In this document: positions 2,467 through 62,156 of the stretch, piece by piece
Layout of the letters: every line of letters begins with the position of its first letter
How positions within the stretch are numbered: position 1 is the first letter of the stretch
DNA from: a virus
Virus record (IMG/VR): IMGVR_UViG_3300023174_000134
Coordinates: 1 to 64,000 of that record
Reading direction: 5' to 3' (one strand)
DNA: 64,000 nucleotides
The notes under the pieces: model-generated
What the model was told of the DNA's origin: nothing
Databases searched by the model: none
The model's input: only the letters and a program-made list of their open reading frames with translations
Made by a program: the position numbers and the translations under genes

Positions 2467-3017
2467 CTTCTTGCTCCATCAAAACGGTGATTAGCATACA
2501 TACCTTGACTTCTTACGTAATGCAAAAATACTTGTCCATATTCTTGACCAGTAAAAGCGTTTTCTCGCCAATGTTCAGATACACAACCTAAGTATATTAC
2601 AGCTTCCCCAACCTTTAAATCTTTTGAAACAATAGATCCGTCAGGTTTAGTAAAGCATATGGGCCAAGAAGTTCCGTCACTACCAAGATGAACAGTAACG
2701 CTAACTTCACAAGCTGGTCGATCAGTATGTTTTTTTAACTCTGCCCCTTTTTTGTACGCTCTTGCATAAGCATAAGTAGGTAATAATTTTTCCCCGACTA
2801 GTTCATTCATATGGGCTGTTTTTTCACACATTAATGCAACAAACGGTACATAGTTACCAATTGATGGAGATCCAGGAGCTTGCGGATCTTTATTATCAAA
2901 ATTGTTTGGGTATAGCTGCACTTCTTGTTTAAACTGTTTATATAAATTACTTGTTTCTTGTATGGATAAAAAATCTGGTACAAACAAATAATTGTTATTT
3001 AAAAGTTCTTGCTTCAT
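2463..3017 (-). CDS. 2OG-Fe(II) oxygenase (third of the cluster)
   Basis: 184 residues. HxD appears in LKKHTDRPACEVSV and the distal His in SEHWRENAFTG. The C-terminal QVFLHYVRS strand completes the beta helix. An ATG 15 bases upstream is in frame, but the start MKQELLNNN at 3017 overlaps the stop of the preceding gene as TAATG, the usual arrangement here. First gene of the oxygenase trio and immediately downstream of fibre-tip and assembly genes. Substrate unknown. Confidence 0.78.
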   Translation of the reverse strand: MKQELLNNNYLFVPDFLSIQETSNLYKQFKQEVQLYPNNFDNKDPQAPGSPSIGNYVPFVALMCEKTAHMNELVGEKLLPTYAYARAYKKGAELKKHTDRPACEVSVTVHLGSDGTSWPICFTKPDGSIVSKDLKVGEAVIYLGCVSEHWRENAFTGQEYGQVFLHYVRSQGMYANHRFDGARR

Positions 3018-3418
3018 TAAGCAGTTGTCCAAACTTCGGTTGGGTTTATGGGCCAGCTAATATTTCCAGCTATAGGAGTAATTGCGTACTGCCGCACAGC
3101 GTTACGATACGTAACAAAATCTTGAACGTTGCTTAAATAAGGATTGCTTTTTGTTGGATCCCCAACATCGGGAATAGTAGTCCAATCCGTGCTTTGTAAT
3201 TTAATTATTGCAGTCTGTTTGTTTTGTTCTGCTGTAGGTGGAACAGGTTCAGGTTGAGGAACGGGGGTAAACTGTTCGTTACTGTATGTATAGTTGCCAG
3301 CAGTTATATCATCAGGACAGTCTACCCATTGATGAGCAGGGTCAACAGGAAACGTTTGACCTAACGATTCAACTTGAACAACTAAAGTGGATGGAATATC
3401 GATTAATGCGCTTTTCAT
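3017..3418 (-). CDS. Probable tail fibre assembly/accessory protein
   Basis: 133 residues with a proline-rich linker (VPQPEPVPPTAEQNK) and a C-terminal region of the kind seen in phage fibre-assembly proteins: KLQSTDWTTIPDV, then a Trp-Pro motif (ISWPINPTEVW). The 94- and 199-residue proteins at 5133 and 8423 also end in a Trp-Pro motif (SWPNDD, NWPRVEI), so the three look like divergent members of one family, each downstream of a different fibre. Function is inferred from this pairing. Confidence 0.5.
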   Translation of the reverse strand: MKSALIDIPSTLVVQVESLGQTFPVDPAHQWVDCPDDITAGNYTYSNEQFTPVPQPEPVPPTAEQNKQTAIIKLQSTDWTTIPDVGDPTKSNPYLSNVQDFVTYRNAVRQYAITPIAGNISWPINPTEVWTTA

Positions 3419-3427
3419 AATAATCCC

Positions 3428-5421: not shown

Positions 5422-5907
5422 TTATCTCGCTAAAGAATTAATTGGTGGATTTTCTAAATATGCAATGGCTATTTTAAGACCTTCTATATTATCACCAAGA
5501 TGACCTAATCCAGTATTACATCCTGTGCATAATAGTCCTCGAACTTCATTTGTTTCATGGTCATGGTCTATATTCATTCTTCGTTTTAATGAATTTAATG
5601 ATTTTTTGCAAATTGCACATTCATTATTTTGAATTTCTAACAATTGATTAAATTGTTCTAATGAAATTCCATATTGTTTACGCATAATATTGTCAGCTCT
5701 TTCAAGTCCAGACCAGTTTGGTGGCTTGTAATTTTCACATGACATTGATTTTTGGTTATTTTGAATATTACGGCTAGATTGTTCATGTTCTTTACCACAA
5801 AATTTACATTGAATAATCCATTTATTTGGATTTTCTGTGCGTAAAGCTATTGAATGGTCATTTTCATAACCAGTCAAATTAACTCGTGGTTTTCTTTGTC
5901 TTGCCAT
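5422..5907 (-). CDS. Recombination endonuclease VII-like HNH nuclease
   Basis: 161 residues. A first zinc pair (IQCKFCGKEHEQ) is followed by the endonuclease VII module: ECAICKKSL, the catalytic NIDHDHETNEVRGLLC, and CTGCNTGLGHL. This family includes T4 gp49 and many homing-type nucleases. A gene of this size between fibre genes is more likely a mobile endonuclease than the phage's resolvase. It starts with ATG in a TGATG overlap with the adhesin stop. Its last ten codons (ENPPINSLAR) mimic the end of that adhesin (ENPFKNSLAR). Confidence 0.85.
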   Translation of the reverse strand: MARQRKPRVNLTGYENDHSIALRTENPNKWIIQCKFCGKEHEQSSRNIQNNQKSMSCENYKPPNWSGLERADNIMRKQYGISLEQFNQLLEIQNNECAICKKSLNSLKRRMNIDHDHETNEVRGLLCTGCNTGLGHLGDNIEGLKIAIAYLENPPINSLAR

Positions 5908-8423
5908 CACCGAGCCAAGCTATTTTTAAAGGGGTTTTCGGCAAATGCCATGTAAATGTAAGTAGCACTTGAACCATTTAAATCGCCACCGGCATCTCTA
6001 ATTTTAAATCCATTTGAAAGAAAATCTATATTGTTTCCTGTTTCAGCGATAGCACTATTAGCCCATATATCAGGTGTATTTACATTATATGTTCCACGAG
6101 AAGAATCAAAAATATTCCAAGGCCCAGTAGTGCTTGAAACTTTAGCCATCACATATCTAGGTCTAAACCCAGTAAAGACAAACGGACCATCCGTAGAACC
6201 ATTACCTGTGTAACTGCCAAATGCGGAGAAACCAGCAATTGGTGTCCAAGCATACATTATCATATTTGAACCTGAACCGTTTGTACCACCTGAAGTTCCA
6301 AGAGTTACAACGCTTGCACCTGGTGTTGTGCTATTAAAATACAAACCATTTCCTGGATTATAAATGGCAGCAGTAGAGGACAATAACATTTGACCTTGAT
6401 TTGTATTAAAACCTGTGTGCCATACTAATGCTGAATTGTCCGCAGCATCTCTATTTCTGAATATTAACATACTAGGAGCGGCACCCAGACCATGACCAAT
6501 GGTTGCACCGCCTGTTCCATTTCCTGTATATGTTGCAATACTGAATCCTGTTGTTGTGCTAGCACGAACTTGAGCACTAATTGAACCTGTTGTATTGGTT
6601 ACTGTTGAACCACCAGCCCACCATTGCCAAGCAACATAGGTAGCGGAACTTGTATTAATTGCTGTGTTGGTACCAACTGTAAATCCATTAGAATTAAATG
6701 ATGTAATTGTGTTTGCTGAAGTTGATTCTGCTTCAGCTGCATTGATTACACTAACTTTTGTTGCACCTCTTACGGCATCAAATGCTTGATGATTTGTAGC
6801 AGCACTTCTTGATTTTAACCATACAAAATCTGGTTGAAAACCACCAGCATTCGTTACTGATAAAGTTGCACCGGTACCAGTATATAATGTAGCATCAAAA
6901 TACTTATTGGCAGCCGTTGCAACTGTCGCACCAATCGTTGGTGTTGGTAAATTTGTGGTGCATAATGATTTGAAACCGGATGGCGGAGTGTAAGCAAAAG
7001 GTTGTTGGCCAAAATTAACTGTAAATGTAACATTAGATACGCTAGATGAAGAAAAAGCTGGAAACATTGTTCCAGTTAAACTACTAAATGCAGTTCCTTG
7101 ACTTGCTCCATTTTTGTAGAAAACCAATGTACCAGCGTCCATGTCTAATGCAACACCAATTACATCATTTGTTGTATAAGACGCACCATACGATGTTCCT
7201 ACATCGTTGTTATATTTTCCACCACCAACAAAATAAGACCACCCATTTGCATCTCCACCACAATAATAATCTAAAGTCATTGAAGCATTTCCAATACCAG
7301 GCGAGCTATTACCGCCTAAATGAGTATATTCCCAATACCATTTACCAGATGAAACGCCAAAGGTTGCTCTACCACTTCTTGCGGTGGTAGTTGATTGAGC
7401 AAATCTTAAATTTCCGTTTGATATGGTTCCAACAGTAGTGAAATCTAACGGATTCAATGTTGCATAATTTCCACGAACAACACCACCAACATCAGTAACA
7501 CCTTGTGGTGTATATTGAGTTGGCACATCACGCATTAAATCAAATGTTGAACCACTGGCCGTTGAGATATTGTTTGGTGTCCAGTTGTTTCCATTACCAG
7601 AGAAATCTTTTCCAATAGAACTTGTATCACTTAGGCTCAAATAGAAACCATTGGTGCCATAAGTGCCTGTGTATTTGATTGGTTCCCATACACCTGTGAT
7701 TGGTGATGTTTGACCAAATGAACTGACTGAAACAAGGCTTCCAGAAACCATATTAATTTCTGTTTGATAACCATCACCAAAATAAATTGGTGCGCCACCA
7801 CCCTGATACCCACCGTTAATGTCGTTACGATAAGTGTTATTTATAGACCTGTAAGCTGAAGAAGAAATGCTTCCAGCCGCACCTGAATCACTAGAAGTCC
7901 CCCAAGAAACTTGTTGCCCATTTATATAAGCAATAATTCTATTTGCAGAAGTTCCGTTATCAGGGTCAAATTGAACTACTAAATGATACCAAGCTGATGG
8001 GTCACGATATACGGCATTTGAAACTCTTTGAAAATAATATCCTGAAGCGTTAGTAAAAGCATTAATCCACAAATTACTGTTGCTGTCAAACAGAACCAAA
8101 AGCTGATTTCTTACAGCACCTGAAGTTGTAGTGTTACCACCAATAATAAATTGCTCAGAAGTTAAAATGCCTCTTTTAACCCAAGTTGAAAAAGTCCATT
8201 GATTTTCACCTGATGCAACTGTTGGAGTTCTGCTTAAATAAGCAGAAGCACTATTTCTAAACCTTAATGAACCACTAACTGGATTGGCAAGACCACTAAT
8301 TGGCCATGTGTTTGTTTTAACTGCCTGTGCCTGTGAACCTAAATCCCAAACACCGCTAGCTCCAGTAATTGAAGTATTAGCTGCTGTTTTACGGACTAAT
8401 CCACCAGGATAACGATAAGTCAT
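5907..8423 (-). CDS. Large tail fibre/adhesin with LamG-like domains (paralogue 1)
   Basis: 838 residues. The N-terminal ~220 residues contain a concanavalin/LamG-type jelly roll (WTFSTWVKRG, AWYHLVVQFD, IAYINGQQV, YFGDGY), which often binds carbohydrate. A SPRY-like stretch follows (SGKWYWEYTH, VIGVALDMDAGTLVFYKNG), then beta modules with GHGLGAAPSMLI and GSYTGNGSTDGPFVFTGFRP. The C-terminus YIYMAFAENPFKNSLAR matches that of the 832-residue protein at 9032 (YMAFAETPFK). The two are clearly paralogues, separated by one assembly-type gene. A role in host surface recognition is inferred. Confidence 0.8.
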   Translation of the reverse strand: MTYRYPGGLVRKTAANTSITGASGVWDLGSQAQAVKTNTWPISGLANPVSGSLRFRNSASAYLSRTPTVASGENQWTFSTWVKRGILTSEQFIIGGNTTTSGAVRNQLLVLFDSNSNLWINAFTNASGYYFQRVSNAVYRDPSAWYHLVVQFDPDNGTSANRIIAYINGQQVSWGTSSDSGAAGSISSSAYRSINNTYRNDINGGYQGGGAPIYFGDGYQTEINMVSGSLVSVSSFGQTSPITGVWEPIKYTGTYGTNGFYLSLSDTSSIGKDFSGNGNNWTPNNISTASGSTFDLMRDVPTQYTPQGVTDVGGVVRGNYATLNPLDFTTVGTISNGNLRFAQSTTTARSGRATFGVSSGKWYWEYTHLGGNSSPGIGNASMTLDYYCGGDANGWSYFVGGGKYNNDVGTSYGASYTTNDVIGVALDMDAGTLVFYKNGASQGTAFSSLTGTMFPAFSSSSVSNVTFTVNFGQQPFAYTPPSGFKSLCTTNLPTPTIGATVATAANKYFDATLYTGTGATLSVTNAGGFQPDFVWLKSRSAATNHQAFDAVRGATKVSVINAAEAESTSANTITSFNSNGFTVGTNTAINTSSATYVAWQWWAGGSTVTNTTGSISAQVRASTTTGFSIATYTGNGTGGATIGHGLGAAPSMLIFRNRDAADNSALVWHTGFNTNQGQMLLSSTAAIYNPGNGLYFNSTTPGASVVTLGTSGGTNGSGSNMIMYAWTPIAGFSAFGSYTGNGSTDGPFVFTGFRPRYVMAKVSSTTGPWNIFDSSRGTYNVNTPDIWANSAIAETGNNIDFLSNGFKIRDAGGDLNGSSATYIYMAFAENPFKNSLAR

Positions 8424-9031: not shown

Positions 9032-11530
9032 TCAACGAGAGCGAGCGTATTTAAAGGGAGTTTCGGCAAATGCCATGTATATGTAAGTTCCGCCTGAGAT
9101 ATTGTTTGTGCTGCTATCACCTTGCCTAACTTTGAATCCATTAGAAACAAAATCATGGACGATATTCCCTGCACCATCTGCATCATTGGTATCGGCATAC
9201 ATTCTTAAATTAGTTACATTGTATGGATTTCTTGCGCCATCAATTATGGTCCAGTTACCACCACTAGAACTGTCTGTGCGTTTTGTCATTACAAACCTAG
9301 GTCTAAATCCTGTGTAAACAAACGGACCATCAGTAGAACCATTACCTGTGTATGAGCCAAATGCAGAGTATCCAGCGACTTGAGCAAAGCAGTAGGCTAC
9401 ATAGGTTAGTCCATTGCCATTAATTTCAGCAGAGCCAGCACTTGCAGTAAATACTGAAGATGTTGGAGATGTATTATTCCAAAAATTTGCGCTTGTAATA
9501 GTCGCATTAGTTAAGTTAAGTGCAACAGCACCAGTATTGCCTATGGATTGATGATATGAATACCAGTTAGAAGCATTGCTTCTGCTTTTTACAATAATCA
9601 TTGCTGGGGCAACACCAAGTCCATGACCAATAGTGCCAGTAACCCCTGTGCCTGTATAAGTAACAATACTAAATCCAGCGATTGGATTGGCACGAACTTG
9701 AGCGCTGATAGAGCCTGATGTGTTTGTTACTGTTGAACCACCAGCATTCCAACTCCAACCAACATAAGTTCCACCTGTAATATTGTCCGCAGCATCTCCT
9801 CCAGTACCTAAAGTAAAGCTTGTAGTTCCAAATGTTTGAACATAATAACCACCATTGTCCACTTCAGCACTTGTTAAATGACTATAAAGTGTTTTGCCAG
9901 CACCTCTAATTGCATCAAATAAAATATGGCTTGTTGAACTATCTCTACGCTTAATCCATACAAAATCAGAACCACCATTAGTTGTAATTACTCGGTTGCT
10001 AGTGCTATCTCCAGAATAAATTGTTGCGTTAAAATACTTATTTGGTTGCTTAATTGTTGGTTCAGGTAAGTTATATGTGTTTAATGCTTTGTAACCGGAT
10101 GTTGGTGCTGAAGCAAATGGACTTTGGCCAAAATTTGCAGACATACTGACAGATCCATACAAAGAAATATATGGGTATAAACCTAAAGTATTTGGCAATC
10201 CAGTTACTTGTGAACCATAAGCAGAACCATTTTTTTTAATATCAACAGTACCATTTGTCATATCTACAAGAAATTGAAATACATCACCTGAGCTTACTGC
10301 ACCAGTGCCAGCATAATGAGAAGTGCTTGAACCACCTGAAAACTTTTTATAAACAGCACCTGTGCCACCAGTAATATTTACTGCGGTGTAGTAATCGCTA
10401 ACATATCCAGTTGCAGAAGAATTGGTAAATGTGCCATTACTTTGAACACCAATACCAAAATAGGCTTCATTTGTAGAACCATTAAATGCTTGGCTTGCAG
10501 TAAATTCAAATGCAAATTTACCTGAACTTGGCAAAGCCATAGTTGCTGGGAAGCCACCATAAGCCGTAGTTGAACGGGTTACAAGCAAATTACCATTTGT
10601 TAAAGTTAAACTTCCTGTGTTGGTATTGAGATAATCTAAAGGATTTAATGTTGCATAATTACCACGAACATTTGCACTATCTTGATCCTCAGGCACATCA
10701 ATCATAATGTCGTATGTTGTATTTGCTGTGCTTACATTGAAACCATTTAGTGTCCAGTTATTTCCGTTACCAGAATAATCATAACCCATGGTTGTAGCAG
10801 AAGTGTTATCTCTGAAATTGAGATAGAATCCGTTTGTTCCGTATGTGCCTGTGTAAGCAATCGGAGACCAGTTACCATCTTTGTCTGTGGCACCAAATGA
10901 ACTTGGAGTTAATGCCAATCCATCAACAAAGTAAACTTCGGACATATAGCCGTCAAAAAAACCATCGGAAGCTCTGCCACCTATGTACCATGCTTGCACA
11001 TTGTTTAAAAACGGAAAAGTATAGTTTAATGTTGGATATACAGCAAAAGAACCCGAGGTTTGGCGAATACCATTTACCCAAATTTGCATTCGGTTACTAG
11101 AAGTTGCTTGCGTTGTATCAATAACGAACACGACATGATACCAAGCCGCTGGGTCACGGAATACCGCAGCCGTATTCAGATAATATGTTGTATCACCAAA
11201 ATAAACAGTTTGTTGATAAAATTGTCCATAATAATAATTATCAGCAGCAGCGACAAGAGCTCCGTTATTATTGGAATCGTAATCTTTGCCTCGTTTTATC
11301 CAAGCACTAAAAGTTCCTTTTGTGCTTGCGGAAGATGTTGTTACTGTTCTTGATAATTTAGCAGAAGCTGCACCACGAAACCGTAGCGATTCTTCCACCT
11401 TAAATGGAGGCCAAGAGTTTCGTGATTGATAGTCCGCTTGCTGGGAAAGAAGAAATACACCTGAAGCACCAGCTGCGTTCACAGTTGGCAAAGAAGATGA
11501 AATTACACCGCCGGTGTATCTTTTAGTCAT
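9032..11530 (-). CDS. Large tail fibre/adhesin with LamG-like domains (paralogue 2)
   Basis: 832 residues, collinear with the 838-residue paralogue. It has a jelly-roll start (GTFSAWIKRGKD, AWYHVVFVIDTTQ, MQIWVNGIRQT), a SPRY-like segment (SGKFAFEFTA, FQFLVDMTNGTVDIKKNG), repeated modules (GHGLGVAPAMIIVKSRS, GSYTGNGSTDGPFVYTGFRP) and the shared C-terminus TYIYMAFAETPFKYARSR. Divergence is highest in the N-terminal carbohydrate-binding-like region, as expected for alternative receptor binders. Location and composition make a virion adhesin the best call. Confidence 0.8.
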   Translation of the reverse strand: MTKRYTGGVISSSLPTVNAAGASGVFLLSQQADYQSRNSWPPFKVEESLRFRGAASAKLSRTVTTSSASTKGTFSAWIKRGKDYDSNNNGALVAAADNYYYGQFYQQTVYFGDTTYYLNTAAVFRDPAAWYHVVFVIDTTQATSSNRMQIWVNGIRQTSGSFAVYPTLNYTFPFLNNVQAWYIGGRASDGFFDGYMSEVYFVDGLALTPSSFGATDKDGNWSPIAYTGTYGTNGFYLNFRDNTSATTMGYDYSGNGNNWTLNGFNVSTANTTYDIMIDVPEDQDSANVRGNYATLNPLDYLNTNTGSLTLTNGNLLVTRSTTAYGGFPATMALPSSGKFAFEFTASQAFNGSTNEAYFGIGVQSNGTFTNSSATGYVSDYYTAVNITGGTGAVYKKFSGGSSTSHYAGTGAVSSGDVFQFLVDMTNGTVDIKKNGSAYGSQVTGLPNTLGLYPYISLYGSVSMSANFGQSPFASAPTSGYKALNTYNLPEPTIKQPNKYFNATIYSGDSTSNRVITTNGGSDFVWIKRRDSSTSHILFDAIRGAGKTLYSHLTSAEVDNGGYYVQTFGTTSFTLGTGGDAADNITGGTYVGWSWNAGGSTVTNTSGSISAQVRANPIAGFSIVTYTGTGVTGTIGHGLGVAPAMIIVKSRSNASNWYSYHQSIGNTGAVALNLTNATITSANFWNNTSPTSSVFTASAGSAEINGNGLTYVAYCFAQVAGYSAFGSYTGNGSTDGPFVYTGFRPRFVMTKRTDSSSGGNWTIIDGARNPYNVTNLRMYADTNDADGAGNIVHDFVSNGFKVRQGDSSTNNISGGTYIYMAFAETPFKYARSR

Positions 11531-34352: not shown

Positions 34353-35081
34353 ATGTTACCTAAAATTGATGTGCCGATGTATGATTTGGTTCTGCCTCTT
34401 ACCAAAAAGAAAGTTAGGTTTCGACCTTTTTTGGTAAAAGAAGAAAAGATTTTATTAATGGCCATGGAAGCAGAAGATGATAATTCTATTCTATTAGCAA
34501 TAAAGCAAATAGTTAGCAATTGTTGTTTAGATGATGATATGGATGTCAATACTCTTCCAATTACTGACCTTGAATATTTGTTTTTAAATTTAAGAGCTAG
34601 GTCAGTAGGTGAGATGGTTGATTTGCAATATAAGTGCAACAATAAAATAAAAGATGATAAAGACGAAGAAAAAGACTGTGGAAATTTAGTAAAACTATCC
34701 ATCAATCTTTTAGAAATAAAACCTGAAGCTTCTAAAATTGATAGTAAAATACAATTGAGTAAAAATATGGGTGTTTCTATGAAATATCCAACATTAAAGA
34801 TGATTGAAGGAATTGAAGGAACAGAGGTTGAAAAATTAATGTTGATTCTTTCAAAGTGTGTTGAATATGTGTATGATGCTGAAAATATCTATTATAGTAA
34901 AGATATTCAACCAGAAGAATTAAAAGAGTTTATTGAAAATTTAACGGGAGAACAGTTTGCCAAAATACAACAATTCTTTGATAACATACCAAAAATATCA
35001 AAGAAAGTTAATTTTGGTTGTTCAAAATGTGGCTATCAGGAAGATATAGTCATAGAAGGAATTCAAAATTTTTTCGTATAA
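34353..35081 (+). CDS. 26: Baseplate hub assembly protein gp26 / tail assembly chaperone
   Basis: 242 residues, T4 baseplate gp26-like family: VPMYDLVLPLTKKKVRFRPF and LVKEEKILLMAMEAEDD open the protein, and a zinc-like CSKCGYQEDIVIEG closes it. A good GAGGA precedes the ATG. Its last codons AAT TTT TTC contain a T TTT TTC slip site at 35069-35075. A -1 shift there continues into the overlapping frame to 35260, just before the lysozyme tail protein, the arrangement of lambda G/GT tail chaperones. Confidence 0.85.
   Translation: MLPKIDVPMYDLVLPLTKKKVRFRPFLVKEEKILLMAMEAEDDNSILLAIKQIVSNCCLDDDMDVNTLPITDLEYLFLNLRARSVGEMVDLQYKCNNKIKDDKDEEKDCGNLVKLSINLLEIKPEASKIDSKIQLSKNMGVSMKYPTLKMIEGIEGTEVEKLMLILSKCVEYVYDAENIYYSKDIQPEELKEFIENLTGEQFAKIQQFFDNIPKISKKVNFGCSKCGYQEDIVIEGIQNFFV
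35069..35075 (+). promoter_or_regulatory. Predicted -1 ribosomal frameshift site (T TTT TTC)
   Basis: In the zero frame the codons are AAT TTT TTC GTA TAA. Slipping one base back re-reads TTT TTT and then CGT ATA AAT, opening a 61-codon extension. The heptamer fits X XXY YYZ and lies two codons before the zero-frame stop. Confidence 0.6.
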
Positions 35082-35260
35082 ATTTTTGTTATGATAATTT
35101 GAAAAACTACTTTGAAACAAATTTTGCACTAATGCAACACCACAAATATAATTTGAACGACATAGAAAACATGATTCCTTGGGAAAAAACAATTTATGTT
35201 ACCATGTTAATCAAATATATTGAAGAAGAAAACGAAAAGTTAAAACAAAAAAAGAGATAA
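35075..35260 (+). CDS. Frameshift extension of gp26 (GT-like domain)
   Basis: An open frame in -1 relative to gp26 and without a credible start of its own. The upstream ATG at 35018 lies inside gp26 with no Shine-Dalgarno, and the next ATG would leave only about 42 residues. The extension reads RINFCYDNLKNYFETNFALM, ends IEEENEKLKQKKR and contains MIPWEKTIYVTMLIKYI, the kind of short helical domain (W..xxY...L) that follows tail chaperone frameshifts. The fusion would have about 302 residues. Alternatively it may be an independently translated small protein. Confidence 0.6.
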   Translation, partial: RINFCYDNLKNYFETNFALMQHHKYNLNDIENMIPWEKTIYVTMLIKYIEEENEKLKQKKR

Positions 35261-35263
35261 AAA

Positions 35264-36955
35264 ATGGCATTTTCAGATTTAGTAAGATATCAAAAAAATC
35301 AAGGAAAAGGAGTAATTGGTTCTTTGTCTGGTGCTGTTGGTCAAGCAACTTTACAAAAAATTGATCCAAGAAATTATCTGTTTAATCGCAGAGGAACATT
35401 GGCAACTCTTTTTCCTGGATTAAAAGGTTATCAAGCTAAAACTTCTTCAGATAAAATATCTAGTGGTGCAAGTGGTGGTTTTTCATCCGGTCAAGTTGAG
35501 GTGATAGGCAATAAACTTGACCAACTTTCTACTCAGATGTCTATAACATCAAAAAATTCTATGTCTTTGCCAATGATGGCAAGAGATATGAATGTAATGA
35601 GGCAGAACATTGTTAAAATGGTAAAAGCACAAGGAGTTAAACCTGCAACAAAAGCTGATATGTTTTTTATGAGAGCTAGTGACAGAGAAAAAGCTTATGA
35701 ATCTCAATATGGTAGGAAGACAACTTCTCCAACTCCAATGGCAGCACCAGGTAAAAAAGAAGATGGAAGTTTACTTGGTACATTAATTACAACTGTGGGT
35801 AATATTATATCCACAACACTCACGCAAGGATTAAAATCTATTTCAGATATTGTTGTTGGAGCTTTAAATTCTGTTGCTGAAATAATATCAACTGCAATAT
35901 TAGCTTTAGCTGCGTCCATAACCGGAAAAAATATGTTGGGTGGAGGAATTCCAGATATTGGTGGTAAAGGCGGAAAAGGAACTCCACCAAAAGGAAAATT
36001 AACAAGATTTGGTGGTGCTGCCGTTGGAGCACTTGCTTTTACTGGACTCTCAATTGGTGCTGGGTACGCTACAGACTATGCAATGGATAAAACTGGAGCT
36101 TCTGTTGATCCTGATGAATTGAAGGGATTAAAAGCAGTAGATGAAGAAAACTATAACAAAATGTCCATTGGAGAAAAAATTCAATCTGCTCCAGCTAGAG
36201 GTATTGAAAAAGTTGGTAGTTTTTTAGGATTTGATAGATTGTCTGAAAGAGCCTCAGCTGAAAGAATTAAATCAGAAAGTGAATATTTAAATAAAAAATC
36301 TCCAACTCCAGCTGGCCAAGGAGATGTAAGTGAGGATCTTGTAAATTATGTAAAACAAAAAGAAGGTTTTACGCCAGTAGCTAAAAAAGATTATGCACAA
36401 TATAGTATTGGATACGGAACAAAAGCAAACAGTCCTAATGAGGGTCCAATTACTCCAGAAGAAGCTGATAGAAGATTAAGAGAAGTCTTATCTAAAACAC
36501 AAAAAAATGTGATTGACCATGCGGCTAAATATGGGTATAATTGGGACCAGAAAAAAATAGATGCTTTAACTTCTTTCACCTATAATCTTGGGCCAGGAGC
36601 TTTGAATCAACTCACAGCAAAAGGAACAAGAAAAGATGATGAGATTGGTAAAAAAATATTAGAGTATAATAAAGCTGGTGGACAATCTTTGCCTGGACTA
36701 GTAGCAAGAAGGTCTGAAGAATCTACAACATTTTCAAGTGGAGTTTCTCTTGTAGCATCATCACCAAATACAGGTAACAGAGTTTCTAGTATTTCAGCAG
36801 CATTATTAGCTGCAAACCAACCAAGTAGTGGCACTCAAGTGATTGATAATAAAACTATAAACAACAATACTCAAGCTGGTGGCGGTGGTGCAGGAACTCA
36901 AGTAACTGCCTATGACAGCGATATGGTAAAATACTTGTTACGACCAGTTAGTTAA
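35264..36955 (+). CDS. Tail protein with C-terminal GH24 lysozyme (tape-measure position)
   Basis: 563 residues. The N-terminal half is helical, with hydrophobic segments at ~165-225 and ~245-270 (ISTAILALAASITGKNMLGG, GGAAVGALAFTGLSIGAGYA), as in many tape-measure proteins. Residues ~352-500 form a T4-lysozyme-like GH24 domain: catalytic Glu in YVKQKEGFTP (about E366), the Asp of KKDYAQYSIGYGTKA, SFTYNLGPGALNQLT, and GLVARRSEES at the end. It follows the gp26 chaperone, the usual tape-measure place, and may supply the lysozyme missing from gp5. Tape-measure identity is inference. Confidence 0.75.
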   Translation: MAFSDLVRYQKNQGKGVIGSLSGAVGQATLQKIDPRNYLFNRRGTLATLFPGLKGYQAKTSSDKISSGASGGFSSGQVEVIGNKLDQLSTQMSITSKNSMSLPMMARDMNVMRQNIVKMVKAQGVKPATKADMFFMRASDREKAYESQYGRKTTSPTPMAAPGKKEDGSLLGTLITTVGNIISTTLTQGLKSISDIVVGALNSVAEIISTAILALAASITGKNMLGGGIPDIGGKGGKGTPPKGKLTRFGGAAVGALAFTGLSIGAGYATDYAMDKTGASVDPDELKGLKAVDEENYNKMSIGEKIQSAPARGIEKVGSFLGFDRLSERASAERIKSESEYLNKKSPTPAGQGDVSEDLVNYVKQKEGFTPVAKKDYAQYSIGYGTKANSPNEGPITPEEADRRLREVLSKTQKNVIDHAAKYGYNWDQKKIDALTSFTYNLGPGALNQLTAKGTRKDDEIGKKILEYNKAGGQSLPGLVARRSEESTTFSSGVSLVASSPNTGNRVSSISAALLAANQPSSGTQVIDNKTINNNTQAGGGGAGTQVTAYDSDMVKYLLRPVS

Positions 36956-61399: not shown

Positions 61400-61807
61400 T
61401 AGAACTTTTTCCAAGTATTTCTTTCTCTTATGCATTGGCAGGTTTTCCTCATTCAAAAAGGTCTTATACTTGTGGCAACAAGAGCATAAAGTCTGCAAGT
61501 TTTCTGGCACATTGTTAGAATTATCTCCATCTATATGGTCAACTTCTAATTGCCAGTTTGGTGCAACGATGGTAGTGGTACACGCATAACCCAAGCGACC
61601 ATCAACATTTTCACAGAAATCTTTTCTATACTGCTTATAATCCCATCCATTCATTTCATATTTACTCTTATGATGATACGAACATAATTTGTGATATCTT
61701 CCATAACCAGAGTTATCGGCATAATTATCACACCCTTTCACTTCACACTTTGGTGCCAGATTCAAAACTTCTGGCCCCCATAATGTGTTGCTAATTTCCC
61801 ATGCCAT
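61382..61807 (-). CDS. HNH homing-type endonuclease
   Basis: 141 residues. PKCEVKGCDNYADNSGYGRY and KLCSYHHKSKYEMNG provide zinc ligands, and LEVDHIDGDNSNNVPENLQT then LCSCCHKYKTFL is the HNH/beta-beta-alpha-metal catalytic motif. Typical of free-standing phage HNH endonucleases. Its C-terminal codons are formed by the promoter cassette repeat, so gene and cassette may have moved together. One-base overlap with the gene upstream. Confidence 0.85.
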   Translation of the reverse strand: MAWEISNTLWGPEVLNLAPKCEVKGCDNYADNSGYGRYHKLCSYHHKSKYEMNGWDYKQYRKDFCENVDGRLGYACTTTIVAPNWQLEVDHIDGDNSNNVPENLQTLCSCCHKYKTFLNEENLPMHKRKKYLEKVLMESRA

Positions 61808-61989
61808 TACTTTTTTCCTTTCTGCGACTGCCAGTATTCCGTAAAGGTATCAAAGCACCTTTGGAACTTCGCTTCATAGACCTCTTTGAGAGAATCAATC
61901 AACTCTGGTTTATCCTTCACTAATTCTATATCTTCAAGGATAGCCCAGCATCGCAAAATTTCTTGTTCTAAATCAAACCTATCACTCAT
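61807..61989 (-). CDS. Small conserved phage protein
   Basis: 60 residues: SDRFDLEQEILRCWAILEDI, LVKDKPELIDSLKEVYEAKF, QRCFDTFTEYWQSQKGKK. I recall this SDRFDLEQxIxxCW pattern from many phages, unknown function. ATGA overlap with the gene upstream. Confidence 0.7.
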   Translation of the reverse strand: MSDRFDLEQEILRCWAILEDIELVKDKPELIDSLKEVYEAKFQRCFDTFTEYWQSQKGKK

Positions 61990-62156
61990 TTTTTATCCTT
62001 TATTTTATTAATGGCATCCATCGCATCAGGATATTCTTTCATCCACGAAACCAACTCATCGTTCTTTACCACATCTTCCAATGGATTCCTTGGTGTTGTA
62101 TTCACCACGATATTAAACTTCGCCAATTTATTCCAGTCAATTTGGTACTCTCTCAT
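61986..62156 (-). CDS. Small hypothetical protein
   Basis: 56 residues from MREYQIDWNKLAKFNIVVN; the frame extends 35 codons further, but that part lies over the neighbouring conserved gene. TPRNPLEDVVKNDELVSWMK, YPDAMDAINKIKDKK. Function unknown. Confidence 0.55.
   Translation of the reverse strand: MREYQIDWNKLAKFNIVVNTTPRNPLEDVVKNDELVSWMKEYPDAMDAINKIKDKK

Follow-up and report, generated by a model that had tools for sequence, protein, structure and literature searches.

The slip site of the lambda G/GT tail chaperone genes is of the G_GGA_AAG type. Frameshifting is reportedly conserved in several groups of T4-like phages as well, the genes concerned in T4 reportedly being 26 and 51. Lambda resembles the locus described here in having a short and a -1 frameshifted long chaperone encoded upstream of the tape measure gene (PMC5009743), and differs from it in having a non-contractile tail. 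For T4-like phages, tail assembly chaperones were identified by Vladimirov, Gautam & Davidson 2022 (Virology 566:9-15), which we cite through PMC10885494 and PMC12846349. According to these two papers, the study covers short and long forms as well as slip sequences of the poly-T type within T4-like TAC-N genes; PMC10885494 states that in some T4-like phages the short and the long form each have a gene of their own instead. The initial annotation of the DNA considered here took such a layout as not known to be assigned to T4 gp26, but in T4-like phages it had already been described by Vladimirov et al. The probably frameshifted gp26 presented here is a well-supported further example of a mechanism that was reported in 2022 for several T4-like groups, and differs from the TAC-N/TAC-NC genes of that study in that the present phage is another, uncultured one. 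Beyond that prior work, the analysis shows how widely the layout is conserved and provides evidence that an upstream Shine-Dalgarno (SD)-like stimulator is present.

The gp26 locus and its predicted products

We examined a 64,000-nt stretch of DNA (the window), which corresponds to positions 1-64,000 of the 81.5-kb record IMGVR_UViG_3300023174_000134 from an uncultured marine T4-like phage. The surroundings of gp26 in the window include T4-like tail genes (DNA end protector, tail tube-like protein, head closure, gp53 and tube cap). The window also holds two minus-strand ORFs (5907-8423 and 9032-11530; 838 and 832 aa) that both match the tail fibre families phrog_19943 and phrog_24898 over much of their length and are likely a duplication. 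The features of the gp26 locus are as follows.

34353..35081, plus strand: gp26-like gene for a predicted short tail assembly chaperone (TAC-N), 242 aa (PF12322, phrog_150, AlphaFold model)
35056..35060, plus strand: AAGGA, SD-like element, its last G 9 nt before the heptamer
35069..35075, plus strand: candidate slippery heptamer T_TTT_TTC (sequence, conservation in relatives)
35079..35081, plus strand: zero-frame stop TAA, 1 codon 3' of the heptamer
35075..35260, plus strand: -1 frame extension (TAC-C; cyanophage "gp51"), 61 codons plus stop, three predicted helices (phrog_634, tblastn, alignment, model)
35264..36955, plus strand: 563-aa ORF with a hydrophobic stretch and a phage lysozyme domain at residues 364-486 (PF00959, E=1.3e-18; position, size)

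The short product matches PF12322 (T4_baseplate; E=2.4e-62, 210.9 bits against a curated cut-off of 24.5) and phrog_150 ("baseplate hub"; E=1e-64). A sequence search of the PDB with gp26 gave no match, nor did Foldseek return any PDB match at E<=0.001 for its AlphaFold model (pLDDT 93). Chaperones surfaced only in a second structural aligner, where the N-terminal ~85 residues of the model were similar to the HK97 tail assembly chaperone (2ob9; Z 7.4 over 83 residues), as well as to 3fgx (Z 8.3) and YqbN (3klu; Z 7.0), with unrelated rows falling to Z 3. As these Z scores are middling, the tail assembly chaperone-like fold predicted for the N-terminal domain is supportive without being conclusive by itself.

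The extension matches phrog_634 ("baseplate hub assembly catalyst", the cyanophage gp51 family; E=4.7e-26) and was modeled as three helices (pLDDT 78); tblastn (E<=1e-3) matched it to 540 phage records, the majority of them from cyanophages. The conserved-looking helical domain that had been proposed from the sequence is consistent with both this family match and the model. Considering the phrog_634 match together with the database entries, in which the gene for the extension is usually drawn as overlapping or abutting gp26, the extension is a known domain that has been catalogued as a separate gene. The ORF that follows (35264-36955) was considered a putative tape measure only by its position, size and hydrophobic stretch, and it has no detectable similarity to T4 gp29. 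When compared by phmmer with L003, the nearest distinct relative (75% identical), it aligns at residues 2-264 and 498-563 and leaves the lysozyme region uncovered, a pattern that suggests gain or loss of this domain.

Slip site, register and conservation

The 3' end of gp26 reads GAA GGA ATT CAA AAT TTT TTC GTA TAA. Given a heptamer at 35069-35075 and a stop at 35079-35081, a single codon (GTA) lies between them. Reading in the -1 frame at the heptamer yields 61 codons (35075-35257) followed by a stop (35258-35260), for a fusion of 302 aa. The gene end that the initial annotation had read as AAT TTT TTC GTA TAA with a T TTT TTC site was verified to the base in all its coordinates, and recomputing its 61-codon open frame to 35260 and ~302-residue fusion returned the same 61 codons and 302 aa. 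An open -1 frame is uninformative by itself, since 40 of the 89 ORFs in the window have one, largely via gene overlap. Across these 89 ORFs there are 132 in-frame X_XXY_YYZ heptamers, yet a T-rich heptamer near the stop is combined with a long -1 extension in gp26 alone; codon shuffling of the ORFs in this AT-rich window puts the probability of a T_TTT_TTN within the last six codons at 0.0064 per ORF. Long -1 extensions also accompany A_AAA_AAG at 61807-61992 and A_AAC_CCA at 3017-3421 (both minus strand), but these two candidates were rejected, the extension in each case being an ordinary overlapping gene with its own ATG.

Conservation in relatives is a stronger argument against chance than these window statistics. 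The comparison set was composed of the best 80 of at least 599 IMG/VR loci, which were chosen by a gp26 N-terminal motif and hence independently of the slip site, together with closer relatives and named phages. This gave 92 loci for the slip-site count, with 90 used for the T run, 89 for the GG offset and gp26 starts, 87 with a complete extension for extension starts and 83 for downstream genes. As the IMG/VR loci are the best 80 of at least 599, the sampling covers the nearer part of the family. Slip-site conservation in related phages had been suggested at the outset as a check on the frameshift, and the heptamer was indeed kept: T_TTT_TT[C/T/A] occurs in identical register, 0-3 codons 5' of the gp26 stop, in 91/92 loci, including 80/80 of the motif-selected IMG/VR loci (the best 80 of at least 599). 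The sole exception is Vibrio phage K362, and two further phages outside the 92, S-CRM01 (T_TTT_TTC) and Rhizobium phage RL2RES (T_TTT_TTG), also fit. The codon 5' of the Phe-Phe pair is variable (AGT, AAT, GAT, TCT or GGT, encoding Ser, Asn, Asp or Gly), but its third base is T throughout, and TTT is the only codon used for the first Phe. Given the residues and the background codon use, this third-base-T invariance has a log10 P of about -12 (-12.5) even when each of the 35 clusters at 50% identity is reduced to a single sequence, by which relatedness is only crudely handled. No other column of the gp26 alignment has an invariant third-base T.

One alternative is a small gene of its own (gp51) for the extension, with translation past the gp26 stop by reinitiation or coupling, as GenBank annotations imply. 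Many records do annotate it as its own CDS, and an ATG is present within the first 12 codons of the -1 frame, near the junction, in 19/87 loci, so reinitiation could contribute in some phages. However, over a third of the loci whose extension is complete (33/87) have no ATG, GTG or TTG in the -1 frame, either upstream or within the first 12 codons, and an SD-like sequence ahead of a candidate start in the first 12 extension codons was found in 1/87. Because the same SD test was positive at 78/89 gp26 starts but at only 33/83 downstream genes, the absence of an SD is weaker evidence than the absence of a start codon. The window itself offers a separate gp51 only an early TTG or an upstream ATG (35027); neither this ATG nor any of the TTGs in the frame has an SD-like sequence, and in L003 an in-frame TAA closes off the equivalent of ATG 35027. 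The initial view that the extension lacks a credible start was thereby upheld. A separate gene also fits poorly with where conservation of the -1 frame starts, which is directly at the heptamer rather than at a start codon (at +3 and +9, the second codon position is T in 89/89 loci), and it leaves the invariant heptamer unexplained. Substitutions between relatives in the -1 frame are third-position biased. On this evidence we consider independent translation of the extension very improbable. In KVP40-like V09, Moby, RL2RES and S-CRM01 (L013, L014, L106 and L109), whose records are among those annotating a gp51 CDS with its own ATG, this ATG overlaps the gp26 stop in the -1 frame (TAATG or TGATG) and the slip site is present too, so frameshifting and reinitiation could coexist in these phages.

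Slippage could alternatively occur during transcription rather than translation, considering that the site consists of a run of 6-8 T. The run is exactly 6 T in 62/90 loci, though, and it begins at the third codon position in 90/90, which tandem tRNA slippage requires and slippage by RNA polymerase does not; an SD-like element is moreover conserved at the spacing expected for -1 frameshifting. Transcriptional slippage is on these grounds at least as improbable as a separate gene, and we rate it marginally lower. A sequencing or assembly error, or a single ORF that has decayed, is refuted by the relatives, as the same layout occurs in 91/92 loci from both isolates and metagenomes, and its probability is negligible.

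A tail chaperone made in two lengths is the best explanation, because the slip site and its register are conserved, many relatives lack a start codon and the predicted fold is chaperone-like. From these sequence comparisons, it is very likely that one gene gives rise to both lengths through a programmed -1 frameshift on T_TTT_TTC. The majority of ribosomes would terminate at the gp26 stop and release a short form of 242 aa. With P and A sites both occupied by tRNA-Phe on T_TTT_TTC, a minority would slip back by one base and re-pair on TTT TTT, and these slipped ribosomes would then bypass the stop and append 61 residues to give the 302-aa long form. The upstream SD-like AAGGA would probably assist by pairing with 16S rRNA. 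By analogy to lambda G/GT, coating of the tape measure protein would fall to the N-terminal part common to both forms, and with it to the short form, and recruitment of tail tube subunits to the extension of the long form. The sequence itself shows the slip site with its register and conservation, the coding potential of the -1 frame and the predicted N-domain fold, and from these we infer slippage and its rate, the presence of both products in the cell and these binding roles.

Candidate stimulatory elements

A GG dinucleotide occurs at a fixed offset, 9 nt 5' of the heptamer, in 85-86/89 loci, usually as GARGG. The predicted duplex with the anti-SD has a mean energy of -6.1 kcal/mol in the relatives, compared to a background of -0.4 kcal/mol, and reaches -5.0 kcal/mol for the element in the window (GAA GGA, containing AAGGA). 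For stimulators of -1 frameshifting, such as that of dnaX, the working distance is 9-14 nt (review PMC5009743). As the glycine is conserved in T4 gp26 too, protein constraint alone could account for the GG. The Glu codon before the GG, however, is GAG in 60% of relatives vs 19% in the background, the highest value among 25 Glu-rich gp26 columns (the next is 37%), and this bias holds with 27 representatives (10 GAG, 5 GAA, p=7e-5). No clear bias was seen for Lys (AAG 6, AAA 7) among the other codons of the element, nor a consistent preference in its Gly codons, and the synonymous signal is carried by the Glu codon. These patterns make an upstream SD-like stimulator of the gp26 frameshift likely. 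If confirmed, the signal would offer a straightforward entry point into what sets the ratio between short and long form.

No downstream stem-loop was predicted at the slip site of the window (z=+0.69), and the relatives show a weak average tendency toward downstream RNA structure (z -0.6 to -1.1) with few strong cases, so a shared downstream stem-loop stimulator was rejected. We lean, by a modest degree, toward a specific form of the upstream signal, in which the gp26 frameshift of marine T4-like phages would use a conserved internal SD (GARGG, 9 nt 5' of T_TTT_TTY) in place of downstream RNA structure, as a dnaX-like half-signal maintained by synonymous selection. In four relatives (L046, L047, L051 and L093), strong RNA structure (z below -4.5) is predicted 5-75 nt 3' of the slip site and might represent lineage-specific stimulators.

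Comparison with cyanophages, other relatives and T4

The cyanophages P-SSM2 and S-SKS1 have the same gene order, a T_TTT_TTC before the gp26 stop and a homologous extension, and they differ from the locus as described here in that gp26 and gp51 are annotated as two genes. Cyanophage gp51 has been described as lacking the first ~200 residues (Sullivan et al. 2010, PMC3037559). This truncated appearance would be explained by the frameshift, with cyanophage gp51 very probably being the part that is added to gp26 in the -1 frame. There is thus an annotation problem in hundreds of cyanophage and marine phage records, in which gp51 stands as a gene of its own under the label "baseplate hub assembly catalyst". 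The Vibrio phages K362 and K469 (L015, L105) and the Ackermannviridae maane, LIMEstone1 and Gloob (L107, L108, L110) have a -1 extension with a similar MPW motif and no T_TTT_TTY. Their gp26 genes end with N_NTT_TTY (e.g. A_ATT_TTC or G_CTT_TTT), which resembles the site in T7 gene 10. The junction in maane lacks an ATG, so another kind of slip site may be in use.

T4 gp26 is homologous to the short form and keeps the Phe-Phe pair, but writes it as TTC TTT, with no slip heptamer. No extension homologue was found in the -1 frame after gp26 in T4 and its close relatives, and a scan of viral contigs with T4 gp26 returned six loci only, nearly all of them close T4 relatives. T4 gp51 is recovered with a fusion profile (E=1.3e-13 in a two-sequence search), and a profile of the extension matches the last 40 residues of T4 gp51. 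T4 therefore has a separate long gene 51 whose C-terminal end is like the extension, whereas the phage here has a slip site and an extension without a credible start. This agrees with the statement quoted above from PMC10885494 that some T4-like phages have separate short and long genes. The proposal that gp26 is a tail chaperone made in two lengths is supported for the present phage, as judged by slip site, register, starts and fold, and fails for T4, which has the separate genes 26 and 51. The comparison supports T4 gp26 and gp51 as tail chaperones that are encoded by two genes rather than by way of a frameshift.
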